Position numbers and translations under genes: made by a program
In this document: piece by piece, positions 6,627-17,174 of the stretch
Numbering within the stretch: the first letter of the stretch is position 1
Layout of the letters: each line of letters opens with the position of its first letter
Virus record (IMG/VR): IMGVR_UViG_3300009151_004442
Location: 1 to 20,051 of that record
Reading direction: 5' to 3' (one strand)
Origin: a virus
Length of the DNA stretch: 20,051 nt
Notes under the pieces: model-generated
Told to the model about the DNA's origin: nothing
Databases searched by the model: none
Seen by the model: the letters and a program-made list of their open reading frames with translations, nothing else

Positions 6627-6887
6627 ATGGAAGAACAGCAAATCATAGAAATATGGGATACATTTAGAGACTATATTCCAGAAAAAAGTCGAGAAACTGC
6701 CGCTAGTCAATTTGTTGAATATCTTGTTAGCCAAGATGTTGAGATTGCAACACTTGAAAGTGTGTTAGGGTACGACCCTAACGTTGATGCGGCAATTGAA
6801 CTTGTTATTAAAGAACACAGTGATGGTTACGATGATGACGAGGACGACGAAGAATTGGATGAAGGCATCGAAGACGAGGACTACTAA
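6627..6887 (+). CDS. Small acidic protein between uvsX and uvsY
   Basis: This is an 86-residue protein of unknown function. Residues 1-60 look helical (IIEIWDTFRDYIPEKSRE, then a segment ending ESVLGYDPNVDAAI), and the last 20 or so are almost all Asp and Glu, a DNA-mimic-like tail. Its ATG follows the uvsX stop by one base, and GAGGAAG inside the uvsX end can serve as ribosome site. Its stop overlaps the uvsY start as TAATG. Location between recombinase and mediator genes suggests a role with UvsX or gp32, for instance modulating filament assembly, but no motif proves it. Confidence 0.8.
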   Translation: MEEQQIIEIWDTFRDYIPEKSRETAASQFVEYLVSQDVEIATLESVLGYDPNVDAAIELVIKEHSDGYDDDEDDEELDEGIEDEDY

Positions 6888-7342
6888 TGTCATGGTATTC
6901 TAAAGTAAGCAAGGATATTAGTCATCTTCCTGCTTGCATTGAATATTTTTATAAAGAACTAGATTCGGCAAGATACGAGGTAAAAATCCACGGAAACGTG
7001 GAAAAATCCTCGGCTCAATTGCCTGGTATTGTTGAGCAAAGATTTAATCAACTTCAAGAGCTTGAAGCAGTACTTGAATATTTAAACATTGAACTAAGAC
7101 GTACCCGCAGTAAGGCATTTAAGAAGTATCTAGAAAATTATCAAAGAGCATTGAGTAGTAGAGATGTTGAAAAATACGTCGAAGGCGAGGCAGATGTAGT
7201 TGATATGGAAAAAATCATTAATGAATTTGCCATGTTGCGAAATCAATGGCTTGGCATTATTAAAGCATTGGATATAAAACAATGGCAATTAAGTAATATC
7301 ATAAAACTACGAACAGCCGGACTTGAAGACGTAGTCCTATAA
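6887..7342 (+). CDS. uvsY: UvsY-like recombination mediator
   Basis: UvsY helps UvsX displace gp32 from single-stranded DNA. This 151-residue, highly helical protein has the features I recall from UvsY of marine T4-like phages: a central block with NIELRRTRSKAFKKYLE and YQRALSSRDVEKYV, then VDMEKIINEFAMLRN and a C-terminal QLSNIIKLRTAGLED. T4 UvsY is about 137 residues. The start ATG overlaps the previous stop by one base (TAATG), so translation is probably coupled. Position two genes after uvsX in one transcription unit supports the call. The unit closes with a terminator 13 bases after the stop. Confidence 0.85.
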   Translation: MSWYSKVSKDISHLPACIEYFYKELDSARYEVKIHGNVEKSSAQLPGIVEQRFNQLQELEAVLEYLNIELRRTRSKAFKKYLENYQRALSSRDVEKYVEGEADVVDMEKIINEFAMLRNQWLGIIKALDIKQWQLSNIIKLRTAGLEDVVL

Positions 7343-7354
7343 AGGTAAAAAGGT

Positions 7355-7379
7355 AAAAAGGAGACTTGTTCTCCTTTTT
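7355..7379 (+). terminator. Rho-independent terminator after uvsY
   Basis: A 10-bp stem pairs 7355-7364 (AAAAAGGAGA) with 7370-7379 around the loop CTTGT, and the right arm ends in five T with ATTTT following. The -35 element of the next promoter lies within the loop and right arm, so terminator and promoter are nested. Confidence 0.88.
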
Positions 7380-7394
7380 ATTTTGTGTTATAAT
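7366..7394 (+). promoter_or_regulatory. Sigma70-type promoter with extended -10, nested in a terminator
   Basis: TTGTTC (7366-7371), exactly 17 bases, then a perfect TATAAT (7389-7394) preceded by TG one base upstream (extended -10, TGTTATAAT). Predicted +1 is 7401, the A of the next gene's ATG, implying a leaderless mRNA. This is the best host-type promoter in the window. Confidence 0.8.
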
Positions 7395-7400
7395 AAGATT

Positions 7401-8585
7401 ATGTATATTGAAGACCTAATAATTGCGTTAACCACTAGTCGTTTAGTGACAGTGAACCCGTTTGATTCAAAAATTGTACATAGCTTTCAAGATCAAATTT
7501 CTAGAGGCTCGGGTCTTACTGAAAAACAAGAAGCACTGGCCATAAAGATCTTAAAACGCCAAACAAGTAAGTTAAATGCCGTATTATCCAAGGATATTTC
7601 GCCATTTTTAGAAAATCCGGTGTTTAGGTTAACACGTAGAACAGTTGTATTAACCAAACACATAAACATTGTCCCCTACGAAACCTATGGCAAGGCAGTG
7701 AAGCTAACTTTTCCATTCAACGAATCATTGTTGAATAAGATTAGAGAAGAAAAGTCAAAATTAAACTATGCAAACTGGGATAGTGACCAAAAATCATGGA
7801 TTTTTTCACTGGATGAGCGCACCTTAAATTTTATATCAACATTGATCAATGATGAATCATTTGTAGTTGATGAAGAATTTGAAAATTATAAGAATCAAAT
7901 TGTTGAGATTAAAAATAATCTTGAACAGTATGTACCTATGGTAAAAATCAGTGGTGAAACTGTGGAATTTTTGAATGTATACCACAAAATTCCACAACCC
8001 ACTAATTCAAACATTATTGAAAATTTGTTTAATGCAAGACGTTATGGAATTTTTACCTGGGACGAGGAAATTGAAAACAGCACAGAGTGGAAAAATACAA
8101 ATCAAGTAGTTAAAGATTTCCTACAATCCGATCCAGGCCAGGAATTTTCAGTAAATTTGGAAAAAAACACTATTTCTAACATTCAAGAGATTGTAAAATA
8201 TTTAAACCCTGTTTTGTTTATTATTCCAGGCGGCACTGAATTAGAAAAATTACAACTATCTTTGGAATTTTTAAATTCAATTGGAATCAGTAAAGACGAA
8301 ATTAGTGTGCTGTTTAGATTACCCACAGAAACTGGTGGAATTTTCAACAATTACATTAGAGAACAAGAATTAAATTCGCCCGTAACTGAAAAAACTAAAG
8401 CAGTGTTTATTAGCAGTAAAGTTCCTAAGACAATTCTTGAAAAGCAATTAAAATTTAATTGTGTTGTAAGTTTTAACTTTTATAATATTCATTATTCCAT
8501 TAGAAATTTGCTAAAATGGCATCATAATGTCATTAATGTATCAGATAAAAAAGTGACCAAGGAACTAAATTTTGGCAACGTGTAA
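7401..8585 (+). CDS. Unknown protein with HARP-like motif and possible degenerate helicase fold
   Basis: This 394-residue protein sits directly upstream of, and overlaps, uvsW. Residues about 100-150 (KLTFPFNESLLNKI, then WDSDQKSWIFSL) resemble the HARP-type DNA-binding motif of SMARCAL1-like annealing helicases. The C-terminal part has alternating hydrophobic strands spaced like the second RecA lobe of an SF2 helicase (LFIIPGG near 275; TKAVFISSKVPK later), but no Walker A, DEAD/H box or arginine finger is visible. If related to helicases it is probably catalytically dead. I start it at ATG 7401; a TTG at 7383 lies upstream of the predicted transcription start. No Shine-Dalgarno is present. 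Base composition is more AT-rich than its neighbours. Function is unknown; a UvsW accessory role is speculation. Confidence 0.75.
   Translation: MYIEDLIIALTTSRLVTVNPFDSKIVHSFQDQISRGSGLTEKQEALAIKILKRQTSKLNAVLSKDISPFLENPVFRLTRRTVVLTKHINIVPYETYGKAVKLTFPFNESLLNKIREEKSKLNYANWDSDQKSWIFSLDERTLNFISTLINDESFVVDEEFENYKNQIVEIKNNLEQYVPMVKISGETVEFLNVYHKIPQPTNSNIIENLFNARRYGIFTWDEEIENSTEWKNTNQVVKDFLQSDPGQEFSVNLEKNTISNIQEIVKYLNPVLFIIPGGTELEKLQLSLEFLNSIGISKDEISVLFRLPTETGGIFNNYIREQELNSPVTEKTKAVFISSKVPKTILEKQLKFNCVVSFNFYNIHYSIRNLLKWHHNVINVSDKKVTKELNFGNV
8559..8563 (+). promoter_or_regulatory. Ribosome-binding site deciding a TTG start for uvsW
   Basis: AAGGA at 8559-8563 lies eight bases before TTG at 8572. No in-frame ATG or GTG is near, and the protein reads in family-like fashion from MATCKVIIKDEV, so the TTG start is well supported. 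Confidence 0.75.
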
Positions 8586-10032
8586 AGTTATTATCAAAGA
8601 CGAGGTAAATGTTAAGATTGAAAACTTAGATCTTGATGTTCGCAAGGCGTTGGTGAAAAAATTCAAGTTTGAAGACCCTACTGCACGGTTTAGACCCAGC
8701 TATAAATTGGGTCGATGGGATGGCAGTATCAGTTTCTTTGGTCTTGGCGGTACTACATATCTCAGTATGCTACCTCAGGTATTAGAGTATCTTGAAAATA
8801 AAAATTATTACATAGAACTTGAAGATTATAGGATTTCGACTGCCCTGCAATTTGACCAAATTTCTGAGGATTTTTGGGGTGATCAAACATGGCCTGTAGG
8901 ACATCGATTTGCCGGTGAAAAGATTAGACTACGAGATGACCAGGTTGAAGTAGTTAATATATTTTTACAAAATCCACAGAGCTTGCAAGAAATTGCCACT
9001 GGATTTGGTAAGACTATTATCACTGCTACACTGGCAAAAATCTGTGAAAAATACGGTCGTACAATAACCATTGTTCCTAACAAAAGTTTAGTTGAACAAA
9101 CAGAGGAAGACTTTATTAATTGTAAATTGGATGTTGGTGTGTACTATGGTGATAGAAAGGATCTAGATAAAACTCATACTATTTGTACCTGGCAAAGTTT
9201 GAATATTTTAGACAAAAAATCCAAAGAATTTGATGTTGATCCCGAAATGCTTACTTTAGCAGAATTGCTAGATGGTGTACAATGTGTTATGGTTGACGAG
9301 GTACATATGGCCAAGGCCGAAGTACTTAAAAAGCTGTTAACTCACAATCTATCAGGCGCACCCATTCGATGGGGATTAACAGGAACTATACCAAAAGCAG
9401 ACCACGAATTTCAAGCATTACGTGCTAGTCTTGGCGAAGTTGTTCATAGGGTTAAAGCACATGAATTACAAGAGGCAGGTGTACTAAGTAACTGTCATGT
9501 GAACATTGTACAGACTGCTGAGTGGAAAGAATTTGGTAGCTATGCAGAAGAGTTGAAGTATCTAGTCACTGACGATTCTAGGATGAATTATATTAGTGAC
9601 ATGATTAAAGGCATTGCTGAGACTGGTAACACATTGGTATTGGTTAATAGAATTGATTCAGGTAAGGCACTAGTTGAGAAAAATCCAGCCGCAGTATTTG
9701 TATCAGGCGAAGTAAAAACCAAAGATCGGAAAGAAGAGTATGACGAGATTAAAACATCTACTAACAAGATTATTGTGGCGACTTACGGTGTGGCCGCTGT
9801 GGGTATTAATATCCCTAGGATTTTTAATCTGGTTCTTCTGGAGCCCGGAAAGAGCTTTGTCCGCGTTATACAATCGATTGGACGAGGTATTCGGAAAGCA
9901 GATGATAAAGACTTCGTCCAGATCTGGGACCTAACAGCCAGTACAAAATACGCAAAGAGGCATCTTACAGAACGCAAGAAGTTTTATAAAGATGCCCACT
10001 ATCCGTTTAACATTGAGAAAGTAAAATACTAA
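8572..10032 (+). CDS. uvsW: UvsW-like SF2 DNA helicase
   Basis: UvsW is the T4 RecG-like helicase that unwinds R-loops and branched DNA, remodels stalled forks and shifts replication to the recombination-dependent mode. The 486 residues (T4: about 503) show an N-terminal DNA-binding region with RFRPSYKLGRWDG, then helicase motifs in order: Walker A ATGFGKT (142-148), DEVH box (242-245), LTGT (269-272), motif V region VAAVGINIP (about 407-415), and QSIGRGIRK (434-442) carrying the arginine finger. Translation probably starts at TTG 8572, 14 bases inside the previous gene, using AAGGA. Co-transcription with the upstream unknown is likely. Confidence 0.93.
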   Translation: MATCKVIIKDEVNVKIENLDLDVRKALVKKFKFEDPTARFRPSYKLGRWDGSISFFGLGGTTYLSMLPQVLEYLENKNYYIELEDYRISTALQFDQISEDFWGDQTWPVGHRFAGEKIRLRDDQVEVVNIFLQNPQSLQEIATGFGKTIITATLAKICEKYGRTITIVPNKSLVEQTEEDFINCKLDVGVYYGDRKDLDKTHTICTWQSLNILDKKSKEFDVDPEMLTLAELLDGVQCVMVDEVHMAKAEVLKKLLTHNLSGAPIRWGLTGTIPKADHEFQALRASLGEVVHRVKAHELQEAGVLSNCHVNIVQTAEWKEFGSYAEELKYLVTDDSRMNYISDMIKGIAETGNTLVLVNRIDSGKALVEKNPAAVFVSGEVKTKDRKEEYDEIKTSTNKIIVATYGVAAVGINIPRIFNLVLLEPGKSFVRVIQSIGRGIRKADDKDFVQIWDLTASTKYAKRHLTERKKFYKDAHYPFNIEKVKY

Positions 10033-11051: not shown

Positions 11052-11499
11052 TATCCAACGAGAACTGCGAGCAGTAGATCAAAAGAACTACAATTTCTAC
11101 AGCAATCTCACTGATGAAGAACGTAAAGCATTCAGTCCGTATATCTTAATGCGATATACAGCCAGTGTACAACTGCCTGATCGAGATATACAAGAATGGT
11201 ATGTAGAAATGACCAATGAAATGGTTAATAAAAATCATTGGGACCTTAGCAAGGATCACAAAGAACTATTGTGGAAATTGTTTGCCGCAACCGGCACAGG
11301 AGTTAATTGCTATCATCCATATCTTGCCGCAGGCAAAAAAACAAAAGCCAATAAAATTGAAAAGTTGTTAGCGGAATTACATCCTACATACAAACTTGAA
11401 GATATTAAATTATTAGCGAGTTTGATGTCAGCCAAAGATAAAACTGATTTATTTGACAACATGGGCTTTGATAAAAAGCAACGAAAGGATTATGAATGA
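11032..11499 (+). CDS. 62: Probable clamp-loader small subunit (gp62-like)
   Basis: A 155-residue helical protein. The order of features (YILMRYTASVQLPDRDIQEWY; TNEMVNKNHWDLSKDHKELLW; YHPYLAAGKK; KANKIEKLLAELHPTYKLED; then a C-terminal MGFDKKQRKDYE) agrees with what I recall of gp62 from cyanophages and relatives. There gp62 joins four gp44 ATPases to load the gp45 clamp on DNA. T4 gp62 is 187 residues, so this is somewhat short. No gp44 or gp45 lies in this window, which is unusual because they are commonly adjacent; that lowers certainty. The ATG at 11032 overlaps the previous gene by 20 bases, and the stop forms an ATGA junction with the next gene. Confidence 0.65.
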   Translation: MATAKLDIQRELRAVDQKNYNFYSNLTDEERKAFSPYILMRYTASVQLPDRDIQEWYVEMTNEMVNKNHWDLSKDHKELLWKLFAATGTGVNCYHPYLAAGKKTKANKIEKLLAELHPTYKLEDIKLLASLMSAKDKTDLFDNMGFDKKQRKDYE

Positions 11500-11903
11500 A
11501 CTGGTTTAAACCTTTACGAGATGATCTAATGGTACAACAGCAGATCTCAAATAGTTGGGAACACATGGTGGGCGTTATTATGCTGAATCAAACTGGACGC
11601 AAACCTGTCAAGACCACACTGCCCGAATTTCTATATTGGTTTCCGACCCCACATGCATTGATCAATGCCGATGAAGAGTTTGTTAAAAGCATTATCAAAC
11701 CCCTAGGTATGACCAATGTTAGATACAAACGGTTAGTTGGCATGAGTTATGACTACTTGACCTGGGACGGCATTGATGCTACAGTGTTATATGGTATCGG
11801 TAAGTATGGTAGCGATAGTTATGAAATATTTTTCAAACAGAACTACTCAGTGCAGCCGCTGGATAAAGAATTGAAAAGATATTTGGATGAAGAAATAGGA
11901 TGA
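11496..11903 (+). CDS. MBD4-like HhH-GPD DNA glycosylase, compact
   Basis: A 135-residue protein resembling the catalytic domain of the mismatch glycosylase MBD4, which removes thymine or uracil opposite guanine. Matching segments are MVGVIMLNQTGRKP (24-37; MBD4 has a LNRTSGK element), KPLGMTNVRYKRL (68-80), the helix-hairpin-helix LYGIGKYGSDSYEIF (98-112) with Tyr104, and VQPLDKELKRYLDE (119-132). In the last segment Asp123 aligns with what I recall as the catalytic Asp560 of human MBD4. Only the glycosylase fold is present, with no methyl-CpG domain and no iron-sulfur cysteines. Start and stop both form ATGA overlaps with neighbours. It is likely intranucleoid repair of deaminated bases; substrate specificity, and any link to modified phage DNA, are inference. 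Confidence 0.85.
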   Translation: MNWFKPLRDDLMVQQQISNSWEHMVGVIMLNQTGRKPVKTTLPEFLYWFPTPHALINADEEFVKSIIKPLGMTNVRYKRLVGMSYDYLTWDGIDATVLYGIGKYGSDSYEIFFKQNYSVQPLDKELKRYLDEEIG

Positions 11904-12978: not shown

Positions 12979-13163
12979 AAATACCAAAGAATGGCAGTAG
13001 GTGGCAAGGAAATGATAGAGACACATTTCATATTTTAAGCACAATTGAATTAGAAGGTAAAACCTGGGTTCATTATATTAAAGAAACTACTACACAAGAT
13101 CCTAGAGAATTTAGTTGCTACTTAGAAAGTTTTTTAGAAAGATTTAGAGAGTTACCAGCATGA
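12975..13163 (+). CDS. Small conserved phage protein (possible DUF4222-like)
   Basis: A 62-residue protein starting MKIPKNGSRWQGNDRDTFHI and ending CYLESFLERFRELP. The pattern of an early GSRW, a central WVHYIKE strand and a terminal Cys/Ser-x-x-x-Phe-x-x-Arg-Phe element is reminiscent of small phage proteins of the DUF4222 type, compact SH3-like beta folds of unknown function. Both ends are ATGA overlaps. It is the last unknown before the sugar genes. Confidence 0.7.
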   Translation: MKIPKNGSRWQGNDRDTFHILSTIELEGKTWVHYIKETTTQDPREFSCYLESFLERFRELPA

Positions 13164-13519
13164 CAAGATTAGACGGCTTTGTAAAAAAAGGTTGGGGTTC
13201 TGAAAACATTTGGGCAACCAACGACAAGTACTGCGGAAAACTAATGCAATTTAATACGGGTGCAAAATTTAGTATGCATTTTCATCATACCAAAGAAGAA
13301 ACTTGGTATGTGCTAGACGGACAATTTTTTGTTAAATGGATTGATACTAAAACTGCTGAGGAATATACTACCTATCTTAAAGCAGGTGACGTATGGCATA
13401 ATGAACCATGCAAGCCACATCAACTAATATGTCAAACCGCAGGTACTATCATTGAAGTTAGTACTCCTGACAGTGTAGAAGACAATTATCGTGTTGCCAA
13501 AGGCGATAGTCAAAAATGA
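13160..13519 (+). CDS. Single-domain cupin, mannose-6-phosphate-isomerase-like
   Basis: A 119-residue cupin. Motif 1 fits the classic pattern exactly: Gly34, five residues, His40-x-His42, four residues, Glu47, six residues, Gly54. The second motif is GDVWHNEPCKPHQL, with His87 (or His80) completing a metal site. Such small cupins bind Fe, Mn or Zn and act as sugar-phosphate isomerases, epimerases or sugar-nucleotide-modifying enzymes. Start and stop both overlap neighbours by 4 bases, and it directly precedes hldD, so a step in the same sugar pathway is likely. One idea is that it replaces GmhA in making the aldoheptose phosphate; this is inference, since no GmhA is seen here. Confidence 0.85.
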   Translation: MTRLDGFVKKGWGSENIWATNDKYCGKLMQFNTGAKFSMHFHHTKEETWYVLDGQFFVKWIDTKTAEEYTTYLKAGDVWHNEPCKPHQLICQTAGTIIEVSTPDSVEDNYRVAKGDSQK

Positions 13520-14289
13520 AAATATTAATTACAGGCCATCGCGGATTCATAGGCCGACATATGGTCAATGCATTAAAAGATGATCACGACTTGTCCTATT
13601 ATGATTGGGGTAATGAGCCACCTGAAATGGAAGGGCTAGATTGGGTAATACATCTTGGTGCTATTGCAGATACTACAGAAACAGATGTTGAAAAAATCAT
13701 GAAACAAAATCATGATTTTAGTTGTATCATGCTCATGGCCTGCCAAATGCATAATGTAAATCTACAATATGCCAGTTCGGCCAGCGTCTACGGAATGAAT
13801 ACTGATTTTAGAGAAGATGCACCAAAGAGTCCAGCTAATGCCTATGCATGGAGCAAGTATTTGTTTGATCGTCATGTAACTTCTCAAAAATTTAATGGTA
13901 TCCGTGTACAAGGATTTAGATACTTTAATGTATATGGACCTTACGAAGATCACAAAGGCAATCAAGCCAGTCCATATTACAAATTTGAAAAGCAGGCTAA
14001 AGAAACAGGAGTTATTAAACTATTTGAAAATTCCGATCAGTACAAACGAGATTTTGTGCCTGTTGAAACAGTAGTCAGTGTTCATAAAAGATTCTTTGAT
14101 GTGCCTGAGAGTGGTATTTGGAATGTGGGTACTGGAATACCAACTTCTTTTGAAAGCGTGGCAAGAGCAGTAGCAGAAAAGTATAATGCTAGAATTGAAT
14201 ATGTTCCAATGCCAGACGATGTTAAAAAACATTATCAGGCCTATACCTGTGCAGACTTAACTAAATTAAGAAAGTATTATTTTATATGA
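13516..14289 (+). CDS. hldD: ADP-glyceromanno-heptose 6-epimerase-like SDR enzyme
   Basis: An extended short-chain dehydrogenase of 257 residues. The N-terminal Rossmann motif GHRGFIG (7-13) binds NAD(P), and the catalytic elements are SSAS (87-90) and Tyr110-x3-Lys114 (YAWSK). HldD-type signatures follow: RYFNVYGPYEDHKGNQAS, then SDQYKRDFVPVE, GIWNVGTGIPTSFESVA, and a C-terminal YQAYTCADLTKLR. HldD converts ADP-D-glycero-D-manno-heptose to the L-glycero form used in LPS inner core. E. coli HldD is about 310 residues; this one ends sooner, lacking the last helices. The start overlaps the cupin stop (ATGA), and the stop overlaps hldC (ATGA). Another NDP-sugar epimerase is the alternative, but the HldD signature is strong. 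Confidence 0.88.
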   Translation: MKILITGHRGFIGRHMVNALKDDHDLSYYDWGNEPPEMEGLDWVIHLGAIADTTETDVEKIMKQNHDFSCIMLMACQMHNVNLQYASSASVYGMNTDFREDAPKSPANAYAWSKYLFDRHVTSQKFNGIRVQGFRYFNVYGPYEDHKGNQASPYYKFEKQAKETGVIKLFENSDQYKRDFVPVETVVSVHKRFFDVPESGIWNVGTGIPTSFESVARAVAEKYNARIEYVPMPDDVKKHYQAYTCADLTKLRKYYFI

Positions 14290-14681
14290 AAGTCATAGTC
14301 AACGGAACCTTTGATATATTGCATCGAGGTCATATTGAAATGTTGGAATATGCAAAAAGCCTCGGCAATCATTTAGTAGTTTGTATAGATACCGACACTA
14401 GGGTTAAACAACTCAAAGGACCAGATCGTCCTATCAACAATCAATTTGATAGATCATTTATGCTTAATGCATTAAAATGTGTTGATACAGTTTGGACATT
14501 TGCCGACGAGGCAGAACTAGAATATATCTTAGAAACTTACAAACCTGACATTATGGTCAAAGGCAGCGACTATCGAGGTAAGCCAATTGTAGGTGAACAC
14601 TTAATCAAAGAAATGAAATTTTATGACATTGACTCAGAATACTCAACAACAAACATCATACAACGTATTACTGATAGGTGA
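14286..14681 (+). CDS. hldC: Heptose-1-phosphate adenylyltransferase (HldE C-terminal domain type)
   Basis: A 131-residue cytidylyltransferase-like nucleotidyltransferase. It begins MKVIVNGTFDILHRGHIEML, with the HxGH motif at 13-16 that binds ATP phosphates. It continues with the family pattern (LKGPDRPINNQFDRSFML, then VKGSDYRGKP at 91-100), ending with STTNIIQRI. It would join ATP to D-glycero-D-manno-heptose 1-phosphate to give ADP-heptose. In E. coli this is the C-terminal half of HldE; here it stands alone, as in bacteria with split HldA/HldC. It starts in an ATGA overlap with hldD and overlaps the kinase gene that follows by over 50 bases. The related FAD synthetase or glycerol-3-phosphate cytidylyltransferase activities are less likely given the neighbours. 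Confidence 0.88.
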   Translation: MKVIVNGTFDILHRGHIEMLEYAKSLGNHLVVCIDTDTRVKQLKGPDRPINNQFDRSFMLNALKCVDTVWTFADEAELEYILETYKPDIMVKGSDYRGKPIVGEHLIKEMKFYDIDSEYSTTNIIQRITDR

Positions 14682-15405
14682 TAGTTGTACTGATATATAT
14701 AATATAGGCATAGTAGATAGACTGAGTCCAGAGGCACCTGTGCCCGTTGTTAAAATTGTAGAAACATTTTCATTACCTGGTATGAGTGCAAATGTATATC
14801 GTAATTTAGTAAGCCTAAATATTGAAGCAGATTTTGTACATAATGAAACATCTATTACTAAAACTAGATTTATAGACAAACGTTCAGGTCAGCATTTACT
14901 TAGAGTAGATGATGAAGAAAATGTAGTACCTTGGTCAGGAAGAACACCACAACCATTAGATGCATATGATGTTATTATTGTATCAGACTACAACAAAGGT
15001 TTTTTAACATCTAAAGGCATTTTAGAAATTATTGAAAATTCTAAATGTCCAATTTTTATTGATACAAAAAAAACACAGCTAGGTATCTTTGATTCTCAAA
15101 GAGTGTATTTTAAAATAAATGAAACTGAATATAAAAATACTCGAAGCCAACCTAAAAATTTAATTGTCACACTAGGAGCCAATGGGGCAGAATATGATGG
15201 TATAAGATATCCTACCAAAAAAGTAGAAGTTATGGATGTATGTGGATGCGGCGACACTTTTCTAGCCGCATTAGTTACCCAATATCTCTTTACAAAAGAC
15301 ATAGAAAAAGCTATACTGTTTGCTAATGTAGCCGCAGGCATTACCGTTCAACATCGCGGAAACTACGCACCATCATACGACGAGATTAGAAATGCCGGAT
15401 ATTGA
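14623..15405 (+). CDS. hldA: Heptose 7-phosphate kinase, PfkB family (HldE N-terminal domain type)
   Basis: A 260-residue ribokinase-fold sugar kinase. It carries HldE-type signatures: VLLIGDSCTD (15-24), the diagnostic RLSPEAPVPVV (33-43), SDYNKG (121-126), and the PfkB catalytic site GCGDTF (208-213) with Asp211 as base. It would phosphorylate D-glycero-D-manno-heptose 7-phosphate at C1. E. coli's kinase domain is longer (about 320), and the usual PGGAANVA substrate motif is altered to LPGMSANVYRN, so activity should not be assumed. The conserved Gly-Asp at 19-20 lies over the hldC stop, so the start must be inside hldC. ATG 14623 (59-base overlap) or TTG 14629 are the only candidates; neither has a good ribosome site. 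Confidence 0.85.
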   Translation: MTLTQNTQQQTSYNVLLIGDSCTDIYNIGIVDRLSPEAPVPVVKIVETFSLPGMSANVYRNLVSLNIEADFVHNETSITKTRFIDKRSGQHLLRVDDEENVVPWSGRTPQPLDAYDVIIVSDYNKGFLTSKGILEIIENSKCPIFIDTKKTQLGIFDSQRVYFKINETEYKNTRSQPKNLIVTLGANGAEYDGIRYPTKKVEVMDVCGCGDTFLAALVTQYLFTKDIEKAILFANVAAGITVQHRGNYAPSYDEIRNAGY

Positions 15406-16328: not shown

Positions 16329-16336
16329 TGATTTAA

Positions 16337-16344
16337 AATAAATA
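16337..16344 (+). promoter_or_regulatory. Candidate late promoter octamer for the gene at 16350
   Basis: AATAAATA at 16337-16344 (seven of eight bases of TATAAATA) ends five bases before ATG 16350. The predicted +1 is the A of that ATG. No Shine-Dalgarno is present. Confidence 0.55.
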
Positions 16345-16349
16345 CTCTT

Positions 16350-17174
16350 ATGCAAAATTTACCAATCTATTTATACCCAAACTCTCTTGACGTTATATTA
16401 GATTTGGACGCAAACATTAGGGGAGTTAACCAAGTTATGTATCAACGAGACTTGAAAGTACAAAAAGGGATTAAGAACCAAATTCGAGTCCAATTTAAAA
16501 ATAGCGATCAAAAAAGAATTTCTATTTCTACTGCATCGACATTTGTTTTTAGTATGTTTGATATAATAGATCAGCGTTTGATTTTAGAAAAACAACTTGA
16601 AATTCTAAGCGAAACTACCAGTACCAAAGGCATTGGGCTATTAACACTCAGCGAAAGCGATACTATAGACTTAGATAGAACTAGTTATCAATATAGTGTA
16701 AAAAAATTAGACACAGATGGTACATATACTCCTGCTTATTCAAATACCTATTATGGAATGGCGGGTACCTTGCACCTAAGTAATGATGTAAATCCAGTGC
16801 TCAAAGACAGCGTAACAGTGACCACGTTCAATCCAACATATAACCCTGATATTCAACTATATGAATTTTTCAGTGGTAACTTATATGCAAATCCAGAATT
16901 TAATGGAAACAGCGCATTACACACTGTGGCCATTTACACTACAGCATTTAAAGGTTCAATATACATTGAGGGTACTTTGGAAAACAGTCCTGTAAATTTT
17001 GGAGTAATTACCAGCAAAGATTATACAGGATATTCGGGAGTATCATATCTTAATTTTACAGGTGTGTACTCATATATCCGTATTAGACATATTCCAACCA
17101 AAGGTCCTATCGATGCAGACAACAGAAATACTGCTTACTCCGGAACACTTGACAAAATCCTCTACAGAAGTTAA
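16350..17174 (+). CDS. Probable virion structural protein
   Basis: A 274-residue protein, beta-rich and Thr/Ser/Tyr/Asn-rich, typical of tail or baseplate proteins. The N-terminal part (IYLYPNSLDVILD; VMYQRDLKVQKGIKNQIRV; TFVFSMFDI) resembles the start of baseplate-upper-type proteins that bind polymer-like ligands. The C-terminal half (TVAIYTTAFKGSIYIEGTL; SYLNFTGVYSYIRIRHIP) looks like a jelly-roll or Ig-like sandwich. Similar proteins occur in marine T4-like phages as far as I recall. It starts without a Shine-Dalgarno directly under a late-type octamer, in line with a late gene set between replication genes. The primase promoter overlaps its stop codon. Confidence 0.72.
   Translation: MQNLPIYLYPNSLDVILDLDANIRGVNQVMYQRDLKVQKGIKNQIRVQFKNSDQKRISISTASTFVFSMFDIIDQRLILEKQLEILSETTSTKGIGLLTLSESDTIDLDRTSYQYSVKKLDTDGTYTPAYSNTYYGMAGTLHLSNDVNPVLKDSVTVTTFNPTYNPDIQLYEFFSGNLYANPEFNGNSALHTVAIYTTAFKGSIYIEGTLENSPVNFGVITSKDYTGYSGVSYLNFTGVYSYIRIRHIPTKGPIDADNRNTAYSGTLDKILYRS
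16368..16375 (-). promoter_or_regulatory. Perfect TATAAATA late promoter on the reverse strand
   Basis: Reading leftward, 16375 to 16368 is TATAAATA, an exact T4 late consensus, located inside the first codons of the + strand gene. The predicted +1 is near 16362, giving a 34-base leader to the ATG at 16328. With the + octamer at 16337-16344 it forms an overlapping divergent late promoter pair. Confidence 0.6.

Follow-up and report, generated by a model that had tools for sequence, protein, structure and literature searches.

A 394-aa protein conserved beside uvsW in lake and ocean phages, with a HARP-like domain and a predicted RecA-like lobe lacking catalytic motifs

To remodel a fork, an enzyme needs both a domain able to read DNA junctions and a motor to move the DNA. 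XPB, in which a damage-recognition region (DRD) precedes RecA lobe 1, is an active two-lobed translocase. In phage T4, a HARP domain has been described at the N-terminus of UvsW (PMC4666394), and HARP domains fused to other SNF2 proteins confer annealing-helicase activity (PMC4035279). Transcription of T4 uvsW is driven by a late promoter of the gene itself, and the late appearance of UvsW controls when replication changes from origin R-loops to the recombination-dependent mode (PMC3016281). T4 also has UvsW.1, a small protein that is a potential DNA-binding partner of UvsW (PMC7824862); the paper on it mentions neither HARP nor "inactive".

The locus described here lies in a stretch of viral DNA of 20,051 nt (IMG/VR record IMGVR_UViG_3300009151_004442), hereafter the window, and encodes a 394-aa protein directly upstream of uvsW. 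The protein resembles T4 UvsW in its genome neighbourhood and in having a HARP-like domain followed by a predicted RecA lobe 1, but it has no Walker A, DExH or lobe 2, carries an extra helical N-terminal domain and has no detectable sequence similarity to UvsW. A Y/F-N-E, W-D, K-x-W pattern is common to the 394-aa family, the SMARCAL1/HARP annealing helicases and the phage HARP proteins (PF07443), whereas the 394-aa protein stays below the Pfam cut-off and its helicase part appears dead and halved. It would be comparable to UvsW.1 as a small partner of UvsW with potential DNA binding, although UvsW.1 is trihelical and has neither a HARP domain nor a RecA lobe.

Gene neighbourhood, distribution and selection

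The gene occupies 7401..8585 on the plus strand, with an ATG at 7401 and the stop ending at 8585. A program-made list of open reading frames put the start at a TTG at 7383; the -10 box at 7389 comes after this codon, which makes the ATG at 7401 the likelier start. The gene belongs to a T4-like recombination block consisting, in order, of gp32 (identified by position and sequence), uvsX, an 86-aa ORF, uvsY, the 394-aa gene and uvsW. The constant upstream neighbour is a uvsY-like recombination mediator (6887..7342, plus strand; phrog_231 at E 7.4e-17, and synteny). The downstream neighbour is a uvsW helicase with intact motifs and an N-terminal UvsW_N domain of its own (8572..10032, plus strand). 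The initial annotation had reported that the gene overlaps uvsW and is richer in AT than its neighbours, and both statements hold. The overlap measures 14 nt (8572..8585, plus strand) with TTG as the uvsW start, and among the 40 loci counted an identical 14-nt overlap was found in 33, 31 with TTG. The GC content of the gene is 0.313, compared with 0.351-0.451 for gp32, uvsX, uvsY and uvsW, and it was lower than that of each of uvsX, uvsY and uvsW in 50 of 51 comparable loci.

A first scan of IMG/VR for relatives of the protein gave 48 loci, and alignment-led scans confirmed 143 and 194 stretches, with 80 loci kept from each. The sample drawn from the kept loci contained 188 complete relatives (101 distinct), from which 57 representatives with pairwise identity of at most 75% formed the comparison set. 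Immediately upstream, uvsY was found for 99 of the 101 distinct proteins, and uvsW was found immediately downstream for 95; the other two and six cases, respectively, were contig ends, and contig ends aside the order uvsY-394-aa gene-uvsW had no exception. The dN/dS values ranged from 0.052 to 0.201 in the 14 listed of 21 chosen pairs, and the value exceeded that of uvsW in 13 of these 14, indicating that the gene is under purifying selection and functional while changing faster than its neighbours.

The carriers are phages of lakes and oceans that form a little-studied family, and the protein family is undescribed. A tblastn search of 50,697 annotated phage records with the window protein returned no relative at E up to 1, the same search with a divergent family member gave matches at chance level, and none was confirmed in genome_contigs with two patterns. 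A published account of the protein was not found in the literature searched, which included few subscription journals.

HARP-like domain and predicted RecA-like lobe

Three domains are distinguished in the 394-aa protein, for which the full AlphaFold model has a mean pLDDT of 85.3 and a pTM of 0.63. Residues 1-82 (7401..7646, plus strand) are modelled as a helical N-terminal domain with a conserved T-E-K-Q and are matched by profile to gp418 of Sinorhizobium phage Phosso. Residues 84-158 (7650..7874, plus strand) form the HARP-like domain according to profile searches and a domain model, and residues 210-389 (8028..8567, plus strand) resemble RecA lobe 1 according to the model and structural alignment.

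A resemblance to the HARP motif had been proposed for residues of about 100-150, and reciprocal profile searches place it at about 97-152, beyond chance. In the forward direction, a profile of residues 84-158 built from 57 sequences was run against 9580 six-frame ORFs from all loci, and the top non-family ORFs were three Bacillus phage HARP proteins (E 2.5e-6, 8.4e-4 and 5.2e-3), followed by the next non-family ORF at E 0.6. One of these three, the Bacillus phage protein P0001, served as the HARP reference, being annotated as HARP-related and confirmed as PF07443 at 44.4 bits; the other two are its relatives. In the reverse direction, the HARP-segment profile returned its three seed proteins and then, at ranks 4-172, members of the 394-aa family with no outsider among them; the window protein itself came at rank 149, and its score there was weak (9.8 bits). 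Alignment of the HARP-like-domain profile with the HARP profile by hhalign gave 94.8%, against at most 1.1% in six control comparisons.

The Pfam model for HARP (PF07443) did not match the window sequence. Among the 57 representatives it was the Pfam family most often matched, with matches in nine at E up to 10 (best E 0.0018, below the Pfam cut-off), and the best of ten relatives reached 17.5 bits over residues 100-140 against a curated cut-off of 25 bits. A PDB profile search with the HARP-like region did not return the SMARCAL1 HARP structure and gave VV2_1132 (E 0.2) as its only match. The model of residues 77-200 has a pLDDT of 87.4 and superposes on the damage-recognition region of archaeal XPB with an rmsd of 1.8-2.0 over 49-50 residues, at a Z of only 4.7-5.0 that rows for eIF1 and gyrase equal or exceed. 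The SMARCAL1 HARP structure 4o66 is absent among the rows listed for this model, which says nothing either way.

For the C-terminal half, the initial annotation had proposed strand spacing like that of a RecA lobe without the catalytic motifs, and this description agrees with the predicted structure and with the finding that all 188 relatives lack Walker A throughout and DExH in the C-terminal third. VIA-align was applied to the Foldseek candidates, and residues 210-389 aligned with lobes of XPB/TFIIH, Mfd, UvsW, Hef and PriA at Z 7-9 (maximum 9.0, XPB/TFIIH chains), values that according to the tool note are common for models without clear relatives. T4 UvsW (1rif) was matched at Z 7.9, with model residues 217-389 on 87-267. 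Judged by their titles, nearly all of the 50 alignment rows are SF1/SF2 helicase or UvrB-type lobes, with RNase J at rank 11 as an exception. Archaeal XPB (2fz4) was matched twice, by the HARP-like domain on 24-79 and by the lobe on 96-229, in the same order as in the 394-aa protein. With Foldseek, neither the full model nor the model of residues 77-200 matched a PDB entry at E 0.001 or better; the best match of the full model was Mfd (E 0.0054), and other RecA-like ATPases (PilT, F1, Bcs1) also stood high in its list. The full family profile searched against the PDB gave matches at chance level, and no sequence profile ties the C-terminal domain to SF2. The results support, as foreseen, a HARP-like domain followed by a predicted SF2 RecA-like lobe, the latter with moderate strength, and an unrelated fold did not turn up.

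Six strands of the model (249-252, 271-274, 301-303, 334-337, 354-358 and 377-381) fit lobe 1, and the strand order of this lobe would place Walker A at about 253-258, motif Ia at 275-283, motif Ib at 338-343 and DExH at about 358-362. The first strand and its loop (residues 249-258; 8145..8174, plus strand), the putative Walker A place, appear erased, and a GK[ST] P-loop is missing from all 188 relatives. The end of the second strand with the following P-G-G-x-E-x-x-K (residues 275-283; 8223..8249, plus strand), the presumed place of motif Ia, is conserved, and P276, G277 and E280 are invariant in the 57 representatives. Likewise conserved is S-x-K-x-P-K (residues 338-343; 8412..8429, plus strand) at the presumed place of motif Ib, where S338, K340 and K343 are invariant in the same set. 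At the end of strand 5 (residues 357-365; 8469..8495, plus strand), the candidate DExH place holds a conserved H-Y and no acidic residue, and DExH was found in the C-terminal third of none of the 188 relatives. The protein ends at residue 394, just past lobe 1, and a second RecA lobe is absent. The modelled strand order suggests that the conserved positions are those of the DNA-contact motifs Ia and Ib, and that the catalytic positions have been erased.

The proposal of a catalytically dead helicase paralogue beside UvsW stood in part. The succession of a HARP-like domain and a RecA-like lobe without Walker A or DExH agrees with it, but descent from UvsW found no support at the sensitivity used: profile-profile comparison with the UvsW family by hhalign stayed at noise level (0.6% for whole against whole and 0.2-0.9% for the domains). 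The 394-aa protein has no UvsW_N or helicase match in Pfam.

Promoter elements upstream of the gene

The initial annotation had assigned the gene a promoter of its own, which is confirmed by the conservation of the -35 and -10 elements. The -10 element TATAAT (7389..7394, plus strand) lies 6 nt before the ATG; 51 of the 57 representatives have a -10-like box at a distance of 5-9 nt ahead of the ATG, with a modal spacing of 6 nt, and 43 of the 57 have exactly TATAAT. The -35 element TTGTTC (7366..7371, plus strand) lies 17 nt before the -10 element, and a TTG is found at exactly this spacing in 46 of the 51 loci with a -10-like box, against a background frequency of 0.028. In 760,912 bases of both strands of the 57 loci, the pattern TTG-N20-TATAAT-N5-6-ATG occurred at 34 distinct sites, all of them at the 394-aa gene. 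Between uvsY and the gene, a terminator-like hairpin of 11 pairs (7354..7380; from the minus-strand terminator scan, visible in relatives) has a loop that contains the initial bases of the -35 element. The location of the -35 element varies, falling in the hairpin loop after uvsY in some loci and in the last uvsY codons in others.

No Shine-Dalgarno-like sequence was found before the gene in the 51 loci, whereas such sequences precede gp32 in 27 of 32, uvsX in 33 of 42, the 86-aa ORF (o86) in 51 of 52, uvsY in 53 of 54 and uvsW in 40 of 57 cases. Exact TATAAT was not found at the matching place before the starts of six other genes tested, and the uvsW start has no such -10 box. The placement of the -10 element ahead of the ATG predicts the A of this ATG as the first transcribed base, and the conserved sigma-70-type promoter without a Shine-Dalgarno sequence is therefore predicted to give a leaderless mRNA, a feature that was not found linked with UvsW in the literature searched.

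A strict consensus promoter scan did not list this promoter because the -35 element of the window matches the consensus at only three of six bases. The scan gave six promoters in the region, no more than in shuffled sequences (mean 7.1); promoter-like sites inside the 394-aa gene may serve uvsW. The o167 gene was considered as sharing the -10 box and was rejected, as loose hexamers occurred in 17 of 37 cases but exact TATAAT in none of the 37, and the loose matches shown fall in the 3' end of uvsW. Elsewhere in the window, a T4-late-promoter-like AAATAAATACTC is located at 16335-16350, directly before the ATG of an ORF at 16350.

Counterparts in jumbo phages and candidate roles

Among annotated phages, the record with the closest UvsW is that of Phosso. 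Its gp418 (212 aa), two genes upstream of uvsW, matches the N-terminal half of the family at 28.7 bits with the whole profile and at E 3.1e-9 in 9580 ORFs with the N-domain profile, and it has the N-domain and HARP-like region in common with the 394-aa protein. The Phosso arrangement differs in being split in two genes, with gp419 between gp418 and uvsW. Inspected by eye, gp419 (500 aa; L123:4372-5874) resembles an SF2 helicase of two lobes whose motifs are ruined. Its assignment as a dead two-lobed helicase was not retained, as no support came from Pfam, PHROG or PDB sequence searches, no relatives were found in viral_contigs, and one match to an annotated DNA/RNA helicase (E 8) is at chance level. 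In Agrobacterium phage Atu_ph07, ORFs of 181 and 334 aa lie close upstream of uvsW, with one opposite-strand ORF between; the 181-aa protein is itself a structural match from BFVD (E 3.6e-5), with a weak sequence match (E 0.42). At this place phage 121Q and Vibrio phage 2.275 carry another protein, exonuclease-like by eye, and in Paride uvsW directly follows uvsY with no gene between. These three phages have UvsW without the 394-aa protein, indicating that UvsW generally does not need it.

On balance, with a probability slightly better than even, the 394-aa protein is an ATPase-less accessory protein that binds branched DNA and is co-expressed with UvsW. Its HARP-like domain would read DNA junctions, and its lobe would have lost the motifs for ATP binding and hydrolysis while keeping conserved residues at the places of Ia and Ib. 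A leaderless message from its own sigma-70-type promoter would run on into uvsW, and the protein would most likely bind forks, D-loops or R-loops and either hand these to UvsW or hold UvsW there. Since HARP domains confer annealing-helicase activity on SNF2 motors (PMC4035279), a HARP-like domain joined to a dead lobe would be expected to bind junctions but not to remodel them. A partnership with UvsW is suggested by the strict neighbourhood, the overlap and likely co-transcription, and it is the HARP precedent together with this fixed place, the overlap and probable co-transcription that makes a structure-reading accessory of UvsW the best reading.

The domain assignment also allows the reading that the C-terminal domain has a widespread alpha/beta fold of other than helicase origin, and that the protein is a HARP-type DNA binder with some other function. 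The absence of a PDB match at the Foldseek threshold, the ordinary range of the Z values and the missing profile link to SF2 are all compatible with this reading. We consider it unlikely, as the alignment rows are almost uniformly SF1/SF2 or UvrB-type by title and the domain order is that of XPB, although the high places of PilT, F1 and Bcs1 in Foldseek temper the former point. The protein might instead be a brake, a pseudo-helicase that occupies the same junctions and bars UvsW from forks and R-loops until its own level falls. The domain order, as in the N-terminal half of UvsW and XPB, and production upstream of uvsW from a separate promoter fit such a role, and UvsW timing is itself a control point in T4, set by the late promoter (PMC3016281). 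The translational overlap, however, would yield both proteins together, and the present results do not tell help from hindrance; a brake seems slightly less likely still.

The promoter could also point away from UvsW, to an early takeover or counter-defence protein for which adjacency to uvsW reflects a shared transcription unit and not function. The host-type promoter and leaderless design, which differ from gp32, uvsX and uvsY, and the evolution faster than that of uvsW favour this idea. It is nevertheless very improbable, as the position beside uvsW is conserved without exception, the HARP-like domain points to DNA junctions and dN/dS is well below 1.

An extension of the accessory reading, possible but doubtful, is a two-part fork remodeller in which a HARP pseudo-helicase recognizes the junction and determines both the place and the time of UvsW action, its leaderless host-type promoter replaces the T4-style late uvsW promoter, and jumbo relatives carry the partner split in two genes. 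If the 394-aa protein is a motorless version beside an intact UvsW, junction reading and motor would be naturally separated, which would offer a compact system for studying how annealing helicases are directed by HARP domains. Separately, the timing of UvsW would be set by a different, conserved and leaderless promoter instead of the late promoter described for T4 (PMC3016281).

Three further observations were made. A 135-aa ORF (11496-11903 of the window) has weak similarity, below cut-off, to the glycosylases Nth/MutY. Between uvsW and the primase, positions 13160-15405 hold cupin, ADP-heptose 6-epimerase-like, heptose-1-phosphate adenylyltransferase-like and heptose-7-phosphate kinase-like ORFs, which make up a phage set of genes for ADP-heptose; their scores with the heptose models lie below the NCBIfam cut-offs. 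In one related locus (L079:7163-9926), the DExH box of uvsW is interrupted by an intein-like insert; the insert is about 1.2 kb long and has a stop and a frame change of its own.
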